Part shown: positions 342 through 64,000 of the stretch, piece after piece
Numbering within the stretch: the stretch's first letter is position 1
Layout of the letters: every line of letters begins with the position of its first letter
Assembly (NCBI GenBank): GCA_009698815.1
Contig: WLPJ01000008.1
Coordinates: 1 to 64,000, forward strand
Direction: 5' to 3'
Source of the DNA: Actinomycetota bacterium
GTDB taxonomy: Bacteria; Actinomycetota; Actinomycetes; Nanopelagicales; Nanopelagicaceae
DNA length: 64,000 nt
Made by a program: the position numbers and the translations under genes
The notes under the pieces: model-generated
Told to the model about the DNA's origin: nothing
The model's database searches: none
The model's input: only the letters and a program-made list of their open reading frames with translations

Positions 342-1271
342 CTAATCCTGTTTTTCTGCGCGGGGGTGGGCTTGTTTAAATGCTTTTTGCAGACGTTCGG
401 TGGAAACGTGGGTGTAAATCTGGGTAGTAGCAAGGGAGGCGTGCCCCAATATTTCTTGGACGGTTCGCAGGTCGGCGCCACCTTCTAATAAATGTGTTGC
501 CGCCGAATGTCGCAGCGCATGTGGACCCATTCTCTGCGCCCCTTCGAGCGCTTCAAGTGCGTGATAAACCACGGTACGAACAGTGCGTTGATCGATTCGC
601 TTGCCGCGCGAACCAAGAAAAACTGCGCGCATCGATTTTTCACCTGCTAAAGCTGCGCGTCCATTCTTTAACCAATTCTCAAGTGCGCGCATCGCCGGGT
701 TGCCGATCGGAATAGTGCGCTCTTTATTGCCTTTTCCTAATACGCGAATCGTCTGCCTTTGATAATCAATATCTTCTAAATCCAAACCACAGAGTTCAGA
801 GACGCGCGCACCGGAGGCGTACAAGATTTCGAGCATCGCACAATCTCTCTTTGAAATTGGGTCATCTTCTTCAGCAACTCTGGTCGCCATCGAATCCATG
901 GCAGTTGAAGCATCGGCAACGCTTAAAACATCTGGCAAAGTACGCGCACCTTTAGGGGTGGCTAGGGTCGCGCCAACATCTTTTGTGAGATAGCCTTTTT
1001 TAGTCACCCACTTTGTAAATAAACGAATCGAGGTAGCACGGCGCGACATAGTTGTGCGCGCTCCCCCTTTGATTTGCTGGTTAGCAAGCCACGATCGAAT
1101 GTGCGAGAGCTCCAAAGTTGCAAAATCATTTACATCTAACTTAGTTAAATGATCGAAAAAGGAATCTAGATCACCCATATAGGCACGAACTGTGTGTACC
1201 GAAAGATTTCGCTCTGCTTCTAAATAACGTTCAAATGCGCTGCGAATATCACTTAATGCAACGCTAGTCAT
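342..1271 (-). CDS. xerC: Tyrosine recombinase XerC
   Basis: 309 residues, the usual size for Xer recombinases, which resolve chromosome dimers at the dif site together with FtsK. The N-terminal SAM-like DNA-binding domain covers roughly residues 1-95 and the catalytic domain 110-300. The catalytic set is complete: Arg156 (ASGARVSEL), Lys180, His251/Arg254 (HALRH), His277 (LGHASL) and the nucleophile Tyr286 (TTQIYTHVS). I chose the ATG at 1271, where homology begins and which lies 10 nt after the cimA stop; a longer frame would run into cimA. It is the last gene of the branched-chain operon and precedes rpsB. Housekeeping XerC fits better than a phage integrase, because the protein is compact and the context is conserved. 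XerC rather than XerD is a judgement from context. Confidence 0.88.
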   Translation of the reverse strand: MTSVALSDIRSAFERYLEAERNLSVHTVRAYMGDLDSFFDHLTKLDVNDFATLELSHIRSWLANQQIKGGARTTMSRRATSIRLFTKWVTKKGYLTKDVGATLATPKGARTLPDVLSVADASTAMDSMATRVAEEDDPISKRDCAMLEILYASGARVSELCGLDLEDIDYQRQTIRVLGKGNKERTIPIGNPAMRALENWLKNGRAALAGEKSMRAVFLGSRGKRIDQRTVRTVVYHALEALEGAQRMGPHALRHSAATHLLEGGADLRTVQEILGHASLATTQIYTHVSTERLQKAFKQAHPRAEKQD

Positions 1272-1281
1272 ACGATAAAGG

Positions 1282-2871
1282 TTACTCGGGTTTGCGCCCT
1301 TGACGCAGTAAGCCGAAGGTAACTGCATCTTCAAGTGCCATGGCGGATGCGGCTATAACATTTTCGTGAACGCCCACAGTGTTCCATTCACCTTTGCCAT
1401 CTGAAGTTTCCACGAGAACACGAGTGATCGCACCGGTTCCGAGGCGACCTTCAAGAATACGAACTTTGTAATCAGTAAGTTCTAGAACTTCAAGTTCTGG
1501 ATATAGCTGCTTTAAACCAGAGCGAAGTGCGTTATCAAATGCGTTAACCGGACCGTTTCCAGAACCAGAGCATGAGATCGCTTTGCCTTGCGAAGTAACT
1601 GTTACTTCAGCCTTAGTAATAATGCTCTGGTTTTCAGCTCGTTCTACCGTGGTTAACCAATGATCTATTTGAAAAAATGACGGGCGCTTTCCATTTACTT
1701 CTTCTAGCAATAACAGTTCAAAGGATGCATCGGCTGCTTCAAAAGTGAAGCCGCGAGATTCCATCTCTTTTACACGATCGACAATGCGGCCAAGAAGTTC
1801 GCGATCTCCGCCTAGATCAACACCTAGTTCTTGGGATTTCAATTCAATTGAGGCGCGGCCAGCCATTTCAGATACCAACATCCGCATATCATTTCCAACA
1901 GATTCAGGATCTTCGTGTTGATACAAGAAAGGGTCAACTTTGATTGCAGATGCGTGGAGTCCGGCTTTGTGTGCAAAGGCTGAAACTCCAACGTAGGGCT
2001 GGCGTCCAGATGGAGAAATATTTGTAATTTCAGCAACTGCATGTGAGATTCGGAATGACTCTCTTAGGAAATTTGTAGGAAGAACTAACTGCTTCTTCTT
2101 TAGCTCCAGATTAGCGATGATTGTGACTAAGTCTGCGTTTCCAGTTCGCTCGCCGTAACCATTTAGAGTGCCTTGAACGTGGGTTGCACCTGCTGCAACC
2201 GCCGCCATTGAGTTAGCAACTGCGCAGCCAGTGTCGTTGTGGCAATGGATACCGATACGTGCAGAAGTTGCAGTTAAAACATCATGAACCACTTCAGCGA
2301 TTTCATCGGGCAACATCCCGCCATTGGTATCACAAAGCGCAGCAACATCGGCGCCTGCATCCATTGCAACGCGAATAACCTCGAGTGCGTATTCGCGATT
2401 AGCGCGATAGCCGTCAAAGAAATGTTCGGCATCAAGAAAAACGCGTTGCCCTTCTTGGCGAAGGTGAATAACTGAATCGCGAATCATCGCAAGGTTCTCT
2501 TCTAGCGTGGTTTTCAAAGCAAGATCAACGTGGCGATCAAATGCTTTTGCAACCAGAGTTACGGCAGGAGCACCAGAATCGCGAAGTGCGCCCAGCAAAA
2601 CATCATCAGCAGCCTTTGCACCTGGGCGACGAGTTGTTCCAAAGGCCACAAAAGTGGCGTTCTTAAGTTTCAACTCTTTCTTGGCGAGAGCGAAGAATTC
2701 AGTATCTTTTGGATTAGCTCCTGGCCAACCGCCTTCAATAAAACCAACACCAAGATCATCTAGGTGACGCGCGATGGTTAGCTTGTCGTGGACAGAGAGA
2801 TTTAAACCTTCTTGTTGTGCGCCATCGCGCAGAGTTGTGTCATATATATGAAACGCATCCGATACTGGCAT
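1282..2871 (-). CDS. cimA: (R)-citramalate synthase CimA
   Basis: 529 residues, LeuA/homocitrate-synthase superfamily. The DTTLRDG motif (residues 11-17) and metal-binding HCHND (His209, His211) mark the TIM-barrel domain; the C-terminal ~150 residues look like the LeuA-type regulatory domain. The family condenses pyruvate with acetyl-CoA to citramalate, the threonine-independent entry to 2-ketobutyrate and isoleucine. The length and the sequence around DGAQQEG fit the ~530-residue citramalate synthase group better than 2-isopropylmalate synthase. The start ATG overlaps the ilvE stop by one base (TAATG), implying translational coupling. Downstream LeuC/LeuD partners are not in this window. 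A 2-isopropylmalate or homocitrate synthase activity cannot be excluded by reading alone. Confidence 0.86.
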   Translation of the reverse strand: MPVSDAFHIYDTTLRDGAQQEGLNLSVHDKLTIARHLDDLGVGFIEGGWPGANPKDTEFFALAKKELKLKNATFVAFGTTRRPGAKAADDVLLGALRDSGAPAVTLVAKAFDRHVDLALKTTLEENLAMIRDSVIHLRQEGQRVFLDAEHFFDGYRANREYALEVIRVAMDAGADVAALCDTNGGMLPDEIAEVVHDVLTATSARIGIHCHNDTGCAVANSMAAVAAGATHVQGTLNGYGERTGNADLVTIIANLELKKKQLVLPTNFLRESFRISHAVAEITNISPSGRQPYVGVSAFAHKAGLHASAIKVDPFLYQHEDPESVGNDMRMLVSEMAGRASIELKSQELGVDLGGDRELLGRIVDRVKEMESRGFTFEAADASFELLLLEEVNGKRPSFFQIDHWLTTVERAENQSIITKAEVTVTSQGKAISCSGSGNGPVNAFDNALRSGLKQLYPELEVLELTDYKVRILEGRLGTGAITRVLVETSDGKGEWNTVGVHENVIAASAMALEDAVTFGLLRQGRKPE

Positions 2872-3950
2872 TAGATAACCCGCTTCATCCAGTCGTGCTT
2901 ATCAGCCGTTGTCCCATGCTGAATCGCGAGTAAATGATTTCTGATTTCCATGGTGATCTTGCCAGGTTGTCCATCGCCTGTGACCCATTTGCCCATGGCG
3001 CTCTTGGCTTGACCGACTGGCGAAACTACCGCTGCGGTACCGCATGCAAAAATTTCTGTAATTTCACCTGACGCTACGCCCTCGCGCCAATCATCAATCG
3101 ACAACATAACTTCTTCAGTCTTGTATCCCAAATCTTTAGCAGCAGAAAGAATTGAGTCGCGCGTGATTCCGGGAAGAAGCGTTCCGGTCAGCTTCGGGGT
3201 TATTACAGATGCGCCAGCGCCTTTACCTTTAACGAAGTAAAGGTTCATGCCACCCATCTCTTCAATCCATTTACGTTCTTTGGCATCGATCCAAACAACT
3301 TGGTCGCAGCCTTCTTTCGCAGCGGCTTTTTGCGCAACAAGGGATGCCGCATAGTTTCCACCGCACTTGGCTTCACCTGTTCCGCCCAGCGCTGCGCGAA
3401 CATATTCGGTTGAGATCCATACTGAGACCGCCTTAGATGGATCAAAGTAAGCACCAGCTGGCGTTGCAATAAGAATGTATGTCGCCTTATTAGAAGGCCG
3501 AACGCCAAGCCCAACTTCAGTTGCGATCATAAATGGGCGGATATAGAGCGACTCTCCAACTTTATTTGGAACCCATCCAGCATCGCGCGATACAAGTGCG
3601 TTAACTGTCTCCAAGAATAAAGCTTCAGGCATTTCTGGAAGCGCCAATCGTGCTGCGGATTTAGCAAAGCGACGGGCATTTGCTTCGGGGCGAAATAATG
3701 AAATGCCGCCATCTGGTTGGCGATATGCCTTCATACCTTCGAAGATCTCTTGTCCATAGTGAAAAACTGCAGTGGCCGGATCTAAAGAAAGTGGACCATA
3801 AGGAATTAACGAAGGCTCAGCCCAACCATCTTTTTCTGTCCATTCGCAGATAACCATGTGATCGGTGTAGTACTTACCAAATCCACCTTCAGCAACTAAA
3901 GCATCGCGAGTCGCAACATCTTTGGCATTGGGATTTAGTGAAATTTTCAT
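2871..3950 (-). CDS. ilvE: Branched-chain amino acid aminotransferase
   Basis: 359 residues, fold-type IV PLP enzyme that transfers the amino group between glutamate and the keto acids of Leu, Ile and Val. The motif GQEIFEGMKAYR (about residue 67) and the Schiff-base lysine context EAKCGGNYAAS (about 195-205) are the signatures of the large BCAT group shared by actinobacteria and mitochondria. It is co-transcribed: its ATG at 3950 is one base from the leuB stop, and its stop overlaps the cimA start. It carries out the last step for all three branched-chain amino acids whose upstream enzymes are encoded in the same operon. Confidence 0.95.
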   Translation of the reverse strand: MKISLNPNAKDVATRDALVAEGGFGKYYTDHMVICEWTEKDGWAEPSLIPYGPLSLDPATAVFHYGQEIFEGMKAYRQPDGGISLFRPEANARRFAKSAARLALPEMPEALFLETVNALVSRDAGWVPNKVGESLYIRPFMIATEVGLGVRPSNKATYILIATPAGAYFDPSKAVSVWISTEYVRAALGGTGEAKCGGNYAASLVAQKAAAKEGCDQVVWIDAKERKWIEEMGGMNLYFVKGKGAGASVITPKLTGTLLPGITRDSILSAAKDLGYKTEEVMLSIDDWREGVASGEITEIFACGTAAVVSPVGQAKSAMGKWVTGDGQPGKITMEIRNHLLAIQHGTTADKHDWMKRVI

Positions 3951-54461: not shown

Positions 54462-55480
<1,019 letters not shown>

Positions 55481-55679: not shown

Positions 55680-56945
55680 TTAAGGAATGGCAAATCCTTG
55701 CGTTGCTAGGAATGGCTTAACTTCCTCGAAGAAATCCTTAAGTGTTATTCCATGAGCCAATTTGAATGCTTCCTCAAATGTCTTGCCCTGTGCGACATAT
55801 TCGTAGTTTTTCAGAATTGCAGCAACTCCTCCGTGCCAAGCAACAAGATAATCTGTCATTCTGCGACCTAAGCCGTATTCACATTGTCCAAGTTCTGAAA
55901 AACCAGTTGCATTATTGGTCTGCTGCCAATGAGTCCACGCTTTATTGCAATCGCTAAAGGACACAGGTGATTTCTCAAAACGGTTTAAATCACCGTAGTT
56001 AAATTTGCCTTTGCTCATTAGCGATCTAACTAAGCCACCAAAAGTTGAGGCGCTTCCTTCGCGATACCAGGAAGGATGGTAAGGATAGGACAACGAATTA
56101 TTGGGGTCATTTCCGACGATAGCAGCGACAAACTGAGCATTATGAAATGTCTCGTGTGCGGATTCAAACCATGAGCCATCGATACCCGCAATGTTATTGT
56201 TCCAGCCATTTAGATTGGAGATAACTACCTTGCCGCATCCGGCGTTTGCGCCCGCTGTCGTTCCCGTTGGATTTTGGCCCACTAACCGTGGACAAGGTGA
56301 TGCCATTTGTTTATCGGCCCACTCCGCTGTTTCATACATGTAATACATTGGAGAAATCATGCTTGACAGCATTTTCCCTATGATTTCAAAAGACACCTCT
56401 GCACTTAGGCGATTTTCTTCATTTCGCGGATGTGATGGATTCTCACTAATCAGTTTCACCTTGTTGTTTTCAAGTGCTGAAAGATAGGGAGCCCACTCCT
56501 TAATAATCGCATCCAACTGTAGATACAGATTGCGTTCAATTTCCGAAACCCCAGGGTATGGAACTTCCGGTGTAGGTGTAGGTGTAGGTGTAATTAACTG
56601 AACACGAAAGCCAACTCCTGGTCCTGAGGAAAATTTTGGTGCGCCTACTGCATCTGCTAAGTAACGCCAAGGTTTAGGCAGTGGAACCTTATCTTTCAAT
56701 TTCAGGAATTTAGCAAATAGACCTTTACTCCCCATTACTTTTGTACAAGAAATTCCAAAGGTGTTAATTTGATATGTGCCTTTTGGAAATTTAACACCAA
56801 CGATTACTTCATTTTTAGTTACCTTGTAATTGCCACAACTTGGAGTTTGGGGACCTGCATGATCAGTTCCATAGGTGGATGTTGGAAGCAGGGTAAGGAT
56901 GAGGGCAACTAAAAGTCCATTGGAAACAGTCCCCTTAGTACGCAT
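55680..56945 (-). CDS. Predicted secreted gluzincin-type metallopeptidase
   Basis: 421 residues. Signal peptide about 1-26. Residues ~37-116 form a Cys-containing domain (FPKGTYQINTFGISC) of a kind seen in exported actinobacterial proteins; a TPTPTPTP linker (119-126) follows. The C-terminal region holds HETFH (264-268), a zinc-site HExxH, and 28 residues on WYREGSA (Glu296), the likely third ligand, as in peptidase_MA-like gluzincins. Cys218, Cys237 and others could form disulphides. It is divergent from the serine hydrolase at 57048 and lies inside the tRNA-Lys repeats. Substrate unknown. I am confident of export and of the HExxH, less of protease activity. Confidence 0.75.
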   Translation of the reverse strand: MRTKGTVSNGLLVALILTLLPTSTYGTDHAGPQTPSCGNYKVTKNEVIVGVKFPKGTYQINTFGISCTKVMGSKGLFAKFLKLKDKVPLPKPWRYLADAVGAPKFSSGPGVGFRVQLITPTPTPTPEVPYPGVSEIERNLYLQLDAIIKEWAPYLSALENNKVKLISENPSHPRNEENRLSAEVSFEIIGKMLSSMISPMYYMYETAEWADKQMASPCPRLVGQNPTGTTAGANAGCGKVVISNLNGWNNNIAGIDGSWFESAHETFHNAQFVAAIVGNDPNNSLSYPYHPSWYREGSASTFGGLVRSLMSKGKFNYGDLNRFEKSPVSFSDCNKAWTHWQQTNNATGFSELGQCEYGLGRRMTDYLVAWHGGVAAILKNYEYVAQGKTFEEAFKLAHGITLKDFFEEVKPFLATQGFAIP

Positions 56946-58588: not shown

Positions 58589-60271
58589 ATGAAAACCAGA
58601 GCAACTTTTAAGACTACTTTAATGTCCGCCTTAATCGCCTTTTCTTTGTTTCCAACCGTAAGCCAGGCCACTTCCCACCCAAAAGTAGACCTACGTCCAC
58701 CAGCATTCGAGATGGGTATTAAAGAGCAATATCCATTGCCTTTTTTTTGGTTATCTGGTTTGCGCGGAAATGTACCGGTGGCAGCAGGCAAACAAGGGCA
58801 AGGCGATCATCCATTATGTGCATCTGCAACAGATCCACATTGCGCAAATAGCGTGGACATACATGCTCTTTTAATTATTCCTCCATGCTATACCGCTGCT
58901 GATCGAGTATGTATTGAAGGATTAGAGATTGGCGCAGAAGGTAAGCCACTTGAAAGCGCAGTGCTAGACCATGAGTTCATGGGTACTAAGACACCGGGGG
59001 ATAATAAATTGGGTTTGCCTGCTGGAGGATCGGGCAGTATCTGGACTGCACCATCAATTGCGCATCAAGGTAATGCACTTTCTTATGCGGTAGTTATCCA
59101 GGCCTCCTACCTCTTAGATAAAAAAATAGCCGCATCTTCTCAACAATTTGGTCCTGGTTATTTTAAGGCAGAAGTCATTCCGGTTAATATGAAAAAAGGC
59201 AGCTACTGCGGTTATGAACTTTTCGAGGTTGCAAAGGATGAATATTTTGGTGAAGTCAATACTGGGTCTCGGCAGGTTGGGAGCTGTAATGGAGGAGGGG
59301 GAACTGCTGGCGAGTGCATCTTGACCGAAACGGGATTTTGCGCCGCCCCGGCTGAATTTTTACCAAATACGAGAGTCGCTCTTACTTTGCGGATGGATAG
59401 TAAACTTACTGGTTGGCTTTTTGGAAGAATGAAAGATGTTGACATAGCAATTACTTCTCTAGATTCTAAAACTAATAAGTTACGGGTAGAAGCAACCTCA
59501 GTCAGTTTACTTACTGCAACGGGATCGGTTGAAAAAAAGAATTTAGCCAATTACCCAGATTTATATGCTTATAAAAAGAAGACTTGGTGGAGTGGTGATG
59601 GAAAGTTTGAAGATTCTCTTGCTTCTGCGGGCACTTTGACGACCACTACGACCAATTTTGAGGAATTTGCAGTGTGGGAGAAATTGATGAAGGCAAACCC
59701 AGAAGATAATTGGCGTTGGAATTTCGCATCAAGTAGTGATGACAGCAAACAAAATTGTTTTGCTCAAGCAGGAAAAGATAAATTGATCGGATTAGTAACA
59801 ACTAATGCGCCAATTTACTGGGGAGGAGCACCTATATTCCAAGATGGATCGTTGAACTATAAGGTGGCTGGGTTACATTTTAAAGCAGATGGTACTTTGT
59901 TTAAAGGTTCATATGACTTGGCAATACGATCAGATGTTGCCAGATGCCTATATGGATTTTCAAATGCACCAATCATGGCAAATGTATCTGTAACATCGAG
60001 CGATGGCGGGGCTCAAAATGTCGCTACCGAATTAGTCACCGAGAAAGGTGGTTGGATTACTCTTAGCGCAAAGAATTTCACCTTTTCATCTCCGACCATC
60101 AAAGTGAAATTGACGCAGGCTGGATCGACCCCACAAGCAACTTCTAAGGGGGCAAAAACATCTTCAGCTGCACCAATTACCAAGAAGACGATTGCCTGCG
60201 TGAAGGGCAAGACAACTAAGAAAGTTACTGGAAACAACCCAACATGCCCTACCGGTTACACAAAGAAGTAG
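58589..60271 (+). CDS. Large exported protein of unknown function
   Basis: 560 residues. Signal peptide about 1-27 (LMSALIAFSLFPTVSQA). The mature part is rich in beta-prone stretches and contains several paired cysteines (about 77/85, 99/107, 207/234, 244/251) that suggest disulphides, hence an extracellular place. The extreme C-terminus, IACVKGKTTKKVTGNNPTC followed by PTGYTKK, is a short Lys-rich two-Cys motif that I have seen on many exported proteins of actinobacteria; it may bind cell wall. No enzyme motif is recognised. It follows the right tRNA-Lys repeat. Function is not assigned. Confidence 0.8.
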   Translation: MKTRATFKTTLMSALIAFSLFPTVSQATSHPKVDLRPPAFEMGIKEQYPLPFFWLSGLRGNVPVAAGKQGQGDHPLCASATDPHCANSVDIHALLIIPPCYTAADRVCIEGLEIGAEGKPLESAVLDHEFMGTKTPGDNKLGLPAGGSGSIWTAPSIAHQGNALSYAVVIQASYLLDKKIAASSQQFGPGYFKAEVIPVNMKKGSYCGYELFEVAKDEYFGEVNTGSRQVGSCNGGGGTAGECILTETGFCAAPAEFLPNTRVALTLRMDSKLTGWLFGRMKDVDIAITSLDSKTNKLRVEATSVSLLTATGSVEKKNLANYPDLYAYKKKTWWSGDGKFEDSLASAGTLTTTTTNFEEFAVWEKLMKANPEDNWRWNFASSSDDSKQNCFAQAGKDKLIGLVTTNAPIYWGGAPIFQDGSLNYKVAGLHFKADGTLFKGSYDLAIRSDVARCLYGFSNAPIMANVSVTSSDGGAQNVATELVTEKGGWITLSAKNFTFSSPTIKVKLTQAGSTPQATSKGAKTSSAAPITKKTIACVKGKTTKKVTGNNPTCPTGYTKK

Positions 60272-60399: not shown

Positions 60400-61032
60400 G
60401 TGTACGAGCAAGTCGATGGCGATTACCGGGCTCTCGGTAAAGATAATCCCCGCCCACGCCGTAATTTTAAACTCGTCGCTGGCCTTGGTCTACTTATTTG
60501 TGGATTTATTGGTGCCACACTCGCTCAGACTATTAATATCAACGCAAATGATCGAGTCGAATTTGGTCAAGGTATCGTCACGCTTAAGGCCTGTGACTCA
60601 TTTATTTCAATTTCCTTGAATCCTTCTGCGGCTACTTTCTCGGGAGTTAACGCTGCTGGTGCGCCATATGAAAATGCATCTCGCGTCCGCAGCATCCTAT
60701 TTACTGGACTTGATACACGAGCCTGTGCGGGAAGAACTATCAAGCTGCAACTCTTTGCGGGCGAGTCCACAACAGCCATGTACTTGTTCTCCGAATCACA
60801 AACTGCAACATCAGTAGATAGCGCATTTTTAGTAATCGATGCCGATAAAACTTTGGATCGGGCGTTGAGTATTACTCTGCTTAATTCACAAAATCAGAAC
60901 ATAGAACGCTCTAGCACTGATCAATCATTGGTTTACAGCACAAACAGCGCAACCTACACACTTGAATTCTCGGCGCCATTAGCTTTAATGAGTGATGTCA
61001 GCCGCGTAAGCGTTGAAACTAGTATTACTTAA
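60400..61032 (+). CDS. Membrane-anchored surface protein of unknown function
   Basis: 210 residues from a GTG with AAGGAG five bases upstream. A basic cytoplasmic N-terminus (RPRRNFK) precedes one hydrophobic segment (about 24-42), then an extracytoplasmic beta-rich domain that opens with ININANDRVEFGQGIVTLKACD. The two Cys (near 65 and 109) may pair. This opening recurs in other surface proteins of the lineage as I remember them; no function is known. Between 60341 and 60376 upstream lie two imperfect copies of AAGGTAA(n)GTCGCT, 20 bp apart. It is convergent with the histidine kinase (4-nt overlap). Confidence 0.75.
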   Translation: MYEQVDGDYRALGKDNPRPRRNFKLVAGLGLLICGFIGATLAQTININANDRVEFGQGIVTLKACDSFISISLNPSAATFSGVNAAGAPYENASRVRSILFTGLDTRACAGRTIKLQLFAGESTTAMYLFSESQTATSVDSAFLVIDADKTLDRALSITLLNSQNQNIERSSTDQSLVYSTNSATYTLEFSAPLALMSDVSRVSVETSIT

Positions 61033-62747
61033 AACGGGGTGGTCATTGTCGCCAAAGTACCGTTTTCGTTTGATTTTAATTTCCAATCTGGCGCAAAAAC
61101 CTCAAAAAAAGTAGTACCTAATCCTCGCTTCTTCGTTGATTTTAATTTTCCATCATCTTGTACTTCAATATGACAAATTTCCTCTTCAATCCACACGATT
61201 ACTCGCACATTCTTAGCCTTACCGTGGCGTATGGCATTTATCACCGATTCTTCAATAAGTTGCGAGATGACCTCTCCGTTCCTGCAAGTCTGGCTAAGTT
61301 CGGCAGGTAAATCCATCTTTATTCTGGTCAAACCACGCCAAGTTTGCACGAGTTCATTAAGTCGAAATTCTGGAATACGAATATCTTTCTTCTGATAAGG
61401 CAATTTCAGATGATCAATACGTTCCAAAACCTTACGAGTTGTCTCGGTCGACATAGACGAGAAGTCAGAATCTGCTGCCTTTAAGAGCAGAAGTTTGCTG
61501 GCTGTCAGTTGTGCTTGAACTTCAGCATGTAAATACTGGGCATATTCTGACTCTGCATTTGAATTGATCCCTGCATTGAGAATTTCCCGAAGTTTTTCCT
61601 CCGGTAGCAAACTTCTTAACTGTTCTAACGCTTTATCGCGTTCTTCATAGGCAGATAGAACCATCGTCCCGCACGCCGCGAATCCAATAAAAGCGGCCAT
61701 CGAACCAATTTGTAGCCAAACTATTCTCATAATACTTAGATACGGATCTTCATTTAGAACAAAACTGATGTACGCAATAATCGGTCCTTGAACAACTACA
61801 TAAAACACGAAGTAGAGTCGGTTATTAAATCGAGTGTCCTTTCTTGCTCTAATAGAGATCGAATCTGCGAGATTAATTAAGAGATAAATAATAACAAGTG
61901 TAATTGATAGAAGTAGAATCGAATTAAACAAAGAACCATAAGCGGATCGGCCTGTAAGGAGGAGTGGAGTGAGCGCTAATGCATATAAGAAAAACGGGAT
62001 CCTGGTTTCTAAAAATGACTTTCTAAGAACCCGCCATGGATGTATTCGAGGCCAAATCAATTCGGCTTCTTTCCATCTTTGTGAACTATTGGGACGAATA
62101 TTCTTGGCAATTACTCGGTCAATTGCTTCAGCTTGTTGAATGAGAGTCAATCCATCAGATTCTTTAGCAAGAGAATCTTCTAATAACTTGCCAAGCTTCG
62201 CGATGGCATCCTGACGTGGCGTATCATCGATTTGATCACGGTTTTTTGATGAAATAAGTTGAGCGATTGACTTATTTGATACAAGTGCAACCAGAAAGTC
62301 TCTTAAGTTTTTCTCAAACTTACCCCAAACCCCTTTAATCATCGAGACCATCACAAAAAGATAGAGAAAAACTAGTCCAGAGTTCAAAGCTCGAAAATAT
62401 ATTGGAAGAGGATCTGTCACTAAAAAGACGGGAGCGATTAAATTTAAAACACTCCCTTTGATAGTACCGAGAACGAATGCAGATATTAGGTGCACTCTTC
62501 CCGAAAATCGCTTATTCAAATAATGGACAAATGGAGCCATGCTGGCATGAGAAATTAAGGCGATTGCAGTCCATAAAAGTGAATTGCGAAAATTAAATTG
62601 ATCTGGGTTGATAAAAATTATTGCAGTCAGGACTGAAAGTGGAATTGTGCTCCAAAAGGCCTCCCAGGTTACTACTCGCTCGTGCAAGAAAGACCTATAA
62701 GGCAAAAATGATTCCTTGATTCTAATAAGAATTAGAGTTGGTTTCAT
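61029..62747 (-). CDS. Multi-pass membrane sensor histidine kinase (HisKA_3-like)
   Basis: 572 residues. About four membrane segments (30-140), a soluble helical linker (140-240), about four more segments (248-365), then the kinase core. The dimerisation helix carries YLHAEVQAQLTAS with His407 as the likely phospho-acceptor. The ATPase domain (about 485-572) has the N box EESVINAIRHG (Glu499/500, Asn504), G1 VQDDG (532-533) and a G2-like RGLGTTFF. This is the NarL-partner class of kinases. No response regulator lies in the window. It follows the partner gene by 27 nt on the same strand, so both are probably co-transcribed. The signal sensed is unknown. Confidence 0.82.
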   Translation of the reverse strand: MKPTLILIRIKESFLPYRSFLHERVVTWEAFWSTIPLSVLTAIIFINPDQFNFRNSLLWTAIALISHASMAPFVHYLNKRFSGRVHLISAFVLGTIKGSVLNLIAPVFLVTDPLPIYFRALNSGLVFLYLFVMVSMIKGVWGKFEKNLRDFLVALVSNKSIAQLISSKNRDQIDDTPRQDAIAKLGKLLEDSLAKESDGLTLIQQAEAIDRVIAKNIRPNSSQRWKEAELIWPRIHPWRVLRKSFLETRIPFFLYALALTPLLLTGRSAYGSLFNSILLLSITLVIIYLLINLADSISIRARKDTRFNNRLYFVFYVVVQGPIIAYISFVLNEDPYLSIMRIVWLQIGSMAAFIGFAACGTMVLSAYEERDKALEQLRSLLPEEKLREILNAGINSNAESEYAQYLHAEVQAQLTASKLLLLKAADSDFSSMSTETTRKVLERIDHLKLPYQKKDIRIPEFRLNELVQTWRGLTRIKMDLPAELSQTCRNGEVISQLIEESVINAIRHGKAKNVRVIVWIEEEICHIEVQDDGKLKSTKKRGLGTTFFEVFAPDWKLKSNENGTLATMTTPF

Positions 62748-62774
62748 TTCTTAAATATCCTCAAATCTAGAATT

Positions 62775-64000
62775 TTAGAGACTAATTTTTTTAATTTCTA
62801 AAATTGCATTAGTCAAAAGTATATTAGCATTATTGATTATATCGGCCGCATTTGACCTCGTTAAATTTAGATCTTCATCTTCAGTTAAAAGATTCAAGGA
62901 AAGTAGCGCCCCAGAAATTTGCCCTTGAAGCGCCCCTTGATTCGTTGAGGTATTTGCGGCCTCAAGAATTTCATTCCTATTGTTCTGTAAATTGAGTAGC
63001 TCTCTTGAACTAGAGCTCTGATCTATCATTGATTTAAGTATTGAAGAATCTCTCTCCAGGAACGACAGAAATGATGAGGCAAGAAAAACCGCAAATGTTA
63101 TCTTCGCCGATGAATACCAAGGATTTAGCGGTTGGTCGAGATTGAAGATTGCTGGCACAAGCCGGGAAGCATAAAAATATTGGATCGCAAAGACAGATAT
63201 AAAAGTTGAAATTAAGAGGAATTGCTTAAGATCACTTTTGGCCTTCTGTAACAGTCTTTCAAAGATCAGAAGTGCGCCCCCAATGATCACAGATCCGAAT
63301 AGAGAGCTCAGGACACCGGAAATCGAATTCCGACCAATTTGGACAATGACTCCACCAATAGAAAGAAAAAGAATCGAAAGTTTTACAGATAATTTGTTCG
63401 GCCATATTGCCAGCGAGTTTTTGGACAAGATAAAGAGGCGCGAAGTCACACCGGTGCGCGGATTAGGAATTGATTCTAACTTATCTAAATTAACGCGCAT
63501 TTGATACGCCAGATGATGAGCTTGCCCTTCCAGCGATTGAAGGGATTGCCGCAAGGCATCTGACGCATCGATTTTCTTTAAACCGGAAGTTAGATGTTGA
63601 AGCTGGATAACTTTTGGCACCAGACTTTGTTGAAGTGTAACGATCGCTTCTTCCTTCATAGCGCTCTGCTTTGAATTCAGATCTGCATTCTCACTCAAAA
63701 TAAATCCATTGAGGGATCGAAGAGCAGATTTCTTTGTATCTATGGCGTAGATAGATCCAAATGAATAGGCAGCAAATGCTAAACCCAGCGTAGAAAATAA
63801 TACAGATGAAAGAATTCGACTGGATGTATAGGACTGATAATTCAAAACTGATGCGGCATAGAATTCAGAGAAAAACCCACGAATCACACCAGTCATCGCC
63901 CAAACCATAAGACAAAGGAAAAGGTTCTGTTCTCGAAGTTTTCTATTTTTTAGAACTGTGAGCGCACTTATATGCAAAAACAGAAATGATGTTAATTCTC
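62775..64000 (-). CDS. Multi-pass membrane protein with degenerate histidine-kinase dimerisation helix, no ATPase domain (5' end off window)
   Basis: The frame is open to the right edge; a TTG at 63977 (400 residues) is only one possible start and the gene probably begins outside. Seen from that TTG: two membrane segments (18-45, 55-78), a helical linker (80-180), about four segments (197-305), then a final helical region with NQGALQGQISGALL (346-359). This aligns with LHAEVQAQLTASKL of the next gene, with Gln347 in place of the phospho-accepting His. The protein ends about 40 residues later without an ATPase domain, and only 27 nt separate it from the kinase. It looks like a pseudokinase partner. 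AT-rich relative to the left part of the window. Confidence 0.72.
   Translation of the reverse strand, partial: ELTSFLFLHISALTVLKNRKLREQNLFLCLMVWAMTGVIRGFFSEFYAASVLNYQSYTSSRILSSVLFSTLGLAFAAYSFGSIYAIDTKKSALRSLNGFILSENADLNSKQSAMKEEAIVTLQQSLVPKVIQLQHLTSGLKKIDASDALRQSLQSLEGQAHHLAYQMRVNLDKLESIPNPRTGVTSRLFILSKNSLAIWPNKLSVKLSILFLSIGGVIVQIGRNSISGVLSSLFGSVIIGGALLIFERLLQKAKSDLKQFLLISTFISVFAIQYFYASRLVPAIFNLDQPLNPWYSSAKITFAVFLASSFLSFLERDSSILKSMIDQSSSSRELLNLQNNRNEILEAANTSTNQGALQGQISGALLSLNLLTEDEDLNLTRSNAADIINNANILLTNAILEIKKISL

Follow-up and report, generated by a model that had tools for sequence, protein, structure and literature searches.

A putative pseudokinase co-sensor encoded between a response regulator and a complete histidine kinase in small-genome Actinomycetota

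Pseudokinases and accessory sensors are known in kind. In the pseudo-histidine kinase DivL, Tyr stands in place of the phospho-acceptor His and the ATPase domain is kept. LiaF is not derived from a kinase, and LiaF and other accessory proteins contact their kinase through the membrane block. NarX and DesK carry the motif DxxxQ, with Gln at H+5. Here we describe a three-gene locus at the edge of a 64,000-nucleotide (nt) stretch, hereafter the window, which is the first part of contig C21 (extending to 69571) of an actinomycetotal genome of ~1.3 Mb (G000; G and L numbers denote genomes and loci). The locus encodes a response regulator (RR), an upstream pseudokinase (PK) and a downstream kinase (HK). 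We propose, with a probability of roughly 55%, that the three genes make up one signalling unit, RR-PK-HK, in which PK is a dedicated pseudokinase and shares the RR with HK as a co-sensor; the pairing and biochemistry of this unit we infer from sequence.

The genes follow the operon order RR-PK-HK. HK, a complete membrane sensor histidine kinase of 572 amino acids (aa), lies at 61029..62747 on the minus strand. The window edge cuts PK, leaving the C-terminal 407 of its 463 residues (62775..63998, minus strand); the complete gene (C21:62775-64166) runs past that edge, and its start is overlapped by 4 nt by the end of RR (216 aa; C21:64163-64813). A preliminary description of the window had anticipated a NarL-type regulator just to its right, and RR answers to it with a Pfam Response_reg match of 38.5 bits (cut-off 30.2) and a LuxR-type helix-turn-helix (HTH) match of 22.7 bits, slightly below the cut-off of 23.5. 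PK and HK are separated by 27 nt, as that description had it, and overlap by 4 nt in many relatives. Its claim that the two adjacent minus-strand genes share a membrane layout was borne out by profile-profile comparison, in which the membrane and linker parts were alike with a probability of 95% over 331 columns.

PK lacks both the phospho-acceptor His and the ATPase domain of a histidine kinase. In the His register stands Q410 of the 463-aa protein (codon 62937..62939, minus strand), which is Q354 in the AlphaFold2 (AF2) model of the window part and the Gln347 that the preliminary description, on a 400-aa numbering, had rightly placed there. Because one of the 20 PKs found (G102) has no C-terminus, tail counts cover the remaining 19. 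In 19/19 the His is replaced, by Phe in 12, by Gln in six (the window included) and by Tyr in one, and in all of them the Gln at H+4 is kept (Q414; codon 62925..62927, minus strand; invariant in a 14-row alignment of homologues). The tail retains the H-box pattern round the lost His, xGxLQGkisGv, and its end lies 54-59 residues beyond the His register, right behind the second DHp helix; no substitute phospho-His in the tail is conserved across homologues. In the 14 members scanned, none had a Pfam match to an ATPase domain at E<=0.01 and none matched any Pfam family, consistent with the early claim that the upstream protein stops short of such a domain. Kinship with a full kinase, loss of the catalytic residues and a kept fold, the helix pair being modelled at moderate confidence, place PK among the pseudo-histidine kinases rather than the histidine kinases. 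In the AF2 model (predicted local distance difference test (pLDDT) 73.4) the terminal helices span residues 351-373, where Q354 and Q358 (Q410 and Q414) lie, and 381-406, and the DHp-like hairpin that the preliminary description had expected is thus predicted with moderate confidence. The ratio of nonsynonymous to synonymous change (omega) was 0.08-0.23 for PK in seven of eight pairs (the eighth undefined) and 0-0.13 for the tail, which fell below the whole gene in five of the seven defined pairs. These comparisons indicate that PK is held under purifying selection, with the loss of His and ATPase domain as a fixed state.

HK, by comparison, retains the full set of kinase features. Its candidate phospho-acceptor His407 lies within YLHAEVQ (codon 61527..61529, minus strand, by count) in a column invariant across HK homologues, and the N box QLIEESVINAIRHGKAKNV and the GLG box are both present and conserved. 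HKs of the RR-PK-HK operons, hereafter triads, read LHAEVQxxL or VHAEVQxxL, so that Gln stands at H+4 here too. The AF2 model (pLDDT 72.9) comprises a DHp hairpin at residues 383-447 (helices 383-426 and 430-447), which bears the His, and an alpha/beta ATPase (CA) part at residues 459-571 (61035..61373, minus strand). The HATPase_c match of this protein (21.9 bits) lies below the Pfam cut-off of 26.4, and the ATPase part of the HK profile matches DesK/YocF by profile comparison (E 1.3e-5). No HK match to Pfam HisKA_3 (PF07730) was listed at E<=1, the genome's one PF07730 match lying on C17. The preliminary description had called the gene a full HisKA_3-like kinase: His407 and the N and G boxes stand, and the label is kept on account of the motif order and the ATPase-part match to DesK, without a Pfam HisKA_3 match.

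Relatives of PK and HK were drawn from genome scans. When 296 genomes of the order (Nanopelagicales) were searched with a PK profile, 27 had matches: the 20 true PKs, three full-length kinases and four weak or partial ones that could not be interpreted clearly; among 396 genomes sampled across the phylum, the window's own genome alone matched. HK follows PK directly in 19 of the 20 genomes, as a preliminary expectation of co-occurrence would have it, the exception being G102, where the contig ends inside PK; in G005 the HK is split into two frames. RR precedes PK in 17/17 genomes where the position is visible, the other three contigs being too short. Since the arrangement recurs within the order, it is more than chance. 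A named collection of 10 loci, each with PK and HK, comprises the same contigs as ten of these loci and supplies names rather than additional cases; one of them (L087, G185) comes from strain IMCC26103, whose chromosome is a single contig and which the NCBI taxonomy lists as unclassified Actinomycetota. An assembly artefact was rejected, the same PK state occurring in many genomes including this chromosome. PK and HK co-diverge, with a distance correlation of 0.96 over 14 triads and a partial correlation of 0.79 given RR. Between G118 and G176 (L041:3500-5900 vs L042), identity per 100-nt block is 97-100% over PK and 56-77% over the middle of HK, a mosaic pattern pointing to recombination or to a mixed assembly. 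The source genome also encodes a second triad-type RR, 68% identical (G000:C12:136705-137352; L079:706-1353), with no PK or HK in view and beside a cluster of EFGQG-family exported proteins and a signal peptidase.

Three full kinases of 586-596 aa match almost the entire PK profile (L061 in G009, L121 in G227 and L122 in G256, at 128.0, 129.6 and 65.7 bits). They open with the same TGRW/TGKW stretch as PK, score above the HATPase_c cut-off and read LHGPLQGRIAG or LHGPVQGKIAG, the His aligning without gaps to the Phe, Gln or Tyr of PK. RR precedes the kinase in L061 and L122; the L121 locus is truncated. The RR tree joins the 16 triad RRs and the extra C12 RR in one group (100/100; 92/98 with other rows) that adjoins the RRs of L061 and L122 and lies far from those of 19 single-kinase loci. 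In the tree of DHp and CA parts, triad HKs (100/99) are separate from the PK-type full kinases (100/100); a sister relation of triad HKs to any single-HK lineage was not resolved in that tree, where long branches meet. The preliminary description had held that homologues with a His and an ATPase domain would make this copy merely decayed. Such homologues exist as these three distant kinases, and the PKs are without the His in all 19 that have a C-terminus; sequence kinship indicates that PK is derived from a full kinase, which speaks of origin and not of decay. We infer that the first kinase of this RR was PK-like, and that catalysis would have been taken over by a kinase of another lineage while PK was retained.

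The triads also share a promoter-like element, GTAW-N3-CCGAW-N(31-32)-TARACT (also written GTAWNNNCCGAW-N31/32-TARACT), which stands upstream of RR in 14/14 triads tested. The first pattern matched 11 of 18 upstream regions and, loosened once, 15 of 18; resampled upstreams gave 1 match in 36,000, for a pattern built from these very sequences. The exact pattern had 13 matches in 251 genomes, 12 of them upstream of a triad RR, and a reversed control had six. The thirteenth, in G156, sits at a contig end, immediately behind the glycosyltransferase found ahead of RR in L048, L050, L052 and L059; no PK was found in G156, and a triad there is a guess. The source genome has GTAWNNNCCGAAYA twice, ahead of its two RR genes; the spacing is 41 nt for the C12 copy against 31 nt, a difference of roughly one turn of the helix. 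The element is absent in L053, L061 and L122, L165 has no exact match, and L164 (G283) has the GTATTACCCGAACA half only, without TARACT.

Surface-related genes adjoin many of these units. In eight triads (L041-L045, L057, L119, L123), RR is divergent to two exported proteins; within the stretch covered, an additional EFGQG protein is present in six of these and a signal peptidase in three (L045, L057, L119). In six others (L048-L052, L059), the neighbours are exopolysaccharide genes: a bacterial sugar transferase directly follows HK, with a Wzz/tyrosine-kinase-like protein and a low-molecular-weight phosphatase (Pfam assignments from L051 only). The remaining triads lie too near a contig end for neighbours to be assigned. 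As for the preliminary suggestion that exported neighbours could be targets, the units of relatives do stand beside exported or surface genes. In the window, an EFGQG-family gene (60400..61032, plus strand) is convergent with HK, overlapping it by 4 nt, and has BLAST relatives in the clusters of L041, L053, L079 and others; the exported cluster of this genome lies on C12 beside the second RR. A cluster protein occurs in 29 of 251 genomes, including 7/7 with a cluster-group triad-type RR and 0/5 with an exopolysaccharide-group RR. RR relatives with other kinases adjoin the cluster as well (L164 in G283, L166 in G217), and no exported cluster is in view at L061 or L122. At L164 (positions 378-3210) the cluster-linked RR has a different kinase (VFIHGKI) and a receiver-only protein behind it, which gives this RR family one more kinase setting.

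Other exported-looking proteins lie near these loci. The motif CxKGxxxKxVTGxxPxCPxGY, possibly a cell-wall or sorting tail, is common to products of the window (58589-60271), L002:5025-5801 and L079:2-610, and is C-terminal in the first two. The product of window 54824-55480 has a GmrSD_C domain (70.4 bits) and is possibly a secreted HNH-type nuclease, while HExxH stretches (HETFH, HEFLH) in window 55680-56945 and L122:4163-5179 mark two proteins near the signalling loci as possible secreted metallopeptidases. A very long, exported-looking repeat protein (L002:5973-9569) lies immediately to the right of the triad; it has at least 1199 aa and runs off the contig.

We hypothesize that HK would autophosphorylate on His407 and phosphorylate the LuxR/NarL-type RR. 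PK would have begun as a kinase belonging to this RR lineage and become a dedicated pseudokinase, which has kept its membrane sensor block and DHp hairpin and has lost the His and the whole ATPase domain. It may pair with HK via membrane helices and/or DHp, feeding in a second signal, and may bind RR, possibly favouring RR dephosphorylation via the invariant H+4 Gln. The output would comprise autoregulation from the promoter-like element and control of cell-surface genes, with the exported EFGQG/signal-peptidase cluster or exopolysaccharide as putative targets. Kept intact in many species, PK is probably a helper that steers the shared regulator.

Several observations weigh against this proposal. 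Synonymous divergence is saturated in several of the omega pairs. The AF2 model of PK was built from 11 sequences, has a predicted TM-score (pTM) of 0.46 and falls below 50 at residues 348-352 and 374-379, and a Foldseek search of it against the PDB gave no fold match at E<=0.001. Shared descent confounds the PK-HK distance correlation, and G118 and G176, with the same PK but a diverged HK, break it. The full kinases are distant from PK (21% for L061). The window's own triad is beside neither the exported cluster nor exopolysaccharide genes, and the cluster occurs in 22 further genomes without a cluster-group triad RR, making it independent of the triad. In G045 (L165), an HK of the triad type begins at 871, shortly after the end of RR at 848, which leaves no PK between them, and a direct search of this 88% complete genome gave none. 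That HK branches inside the triad HKs beside L006, L050-L052 and L059 (100/99), on a branch of 1.43 against a median of 0.49, and the RR tree leaves the placement of its RR open; PK was probably lost in this lineage, HK and RR persisting alone. PK is therefore not essential to HK. The G045 HK has private changes at 6 of 65 otherwise invariant columns, compared with 0-4 in each of the 14 other HKs, too few for the PK contact site to be mapped from them. In G239, a triad-type HK lies at a contig end with no PK match elsewhere in the genome, which decides nothing.

How PK would act can be specified in more than one way. A possible but tentative version is a split sensor, in which PK would be the phosphatase or RR-docking half and HK the kinase half of a hetero-oligomer, two membrane sensors integrating two signals; PK would have shed His and ATPase domain with its H+4 Gln frozen, as the original PK-type kinase of RR was replaced by one of another lineage. 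In a rival account, less likely than the co-sensor proposal, PK would be a membrane sensor that touches HK through the membrane block only, its DHp-like tail serving as a dimerisation coil without RR contact. The likeness of the two membrane blocks, the invariant residues in the second membrane block of PK (e.g. G271, Q276, R279, N280) and the standing of HK and RR without PK in G045 would suit such a sensor; against it, the tail keeps an H-box pattern and not just hydrophobic heptads, ends at the DHp boundary and has an omega below that of the whole gene in five of seven defined pairs.

The invariant H+4 Gln without a His, together with the grouping of the RR lineage with PK-type kinases, could also point to a PK that acts independently of HK: it would form a DHp homodimer of its own and serve as a phosphatase or sink for RR. 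We regard this as slightly more doubtful still, given that HK follows PK in all but one genome, often with a 4-nt overlap, and that the two co-diverge beyond RR. That PK is a decaying gene copy is very improbable: although a domain and the His are lost and one lineage is without PK, the same state is found throughout the 19, with open frames, omega of about 0.1 and a conserved tail.

The co-sensor reading places the locus within a series of states for one RR family: a full PK-type kinase, another kinase, PK with HK, HK without PK, and RR alone. This series lets kinase exchange in two-component systems, and the use of a kinase without its chemistry, be tested. A regulated cell surface is indicated, too, for bacteria with small genomes (about 1.3 Mb here), which are abundant in fresh water.

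Compared with described systems, the neighbouring genes recall SipW/TasA-like exported clusters in having a signal peptidase I close to the archaeal/SipW type (L057, the one protein scanned; TIGR02228, 50.7 bits against a cut-off of 51.85) beside small exported proteins, and differ in that no Pfam or NCBIfam family scored above its cut-off in the exported EFGQG proteins scanned. HK and RR resemble the HPK7/HisKA_3 systems NarX-NarL, DesK-DesR and LiaS-LiaR in the His-bearing DHp hairpin, the DesK-matching ATPase part, and the receiver with LuxR-type HTH; unlike these, HK has no Pfam HisKA_3 match, carries Ala at H+1 and Gln at H+4, and is encoded with a second kinase-derived protein. LiaFSR/VraTSR-type three-component systems likewise encode a membrane accessory protein with a NarL-type pair in a surface-related setting, whereas PK is kinase-derived and keeps the DHp hairpin; no LiaF-family relationship emerged from the absence of Pfam family matches in 14/14 PKs, no direct LiaF comparison having been made. 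PK shares with DivL a replaced phospho-acceptor His and a kept DHp, and departs from it in carrying Phe, Gln or Tyr, in having no ATPase domain and in being co-encoded with a full kinase and RR. PK is unusual in that both the His and the ATPase domain are lost and the DHp is kept, in a gene that lies between its RR and a full kinase.

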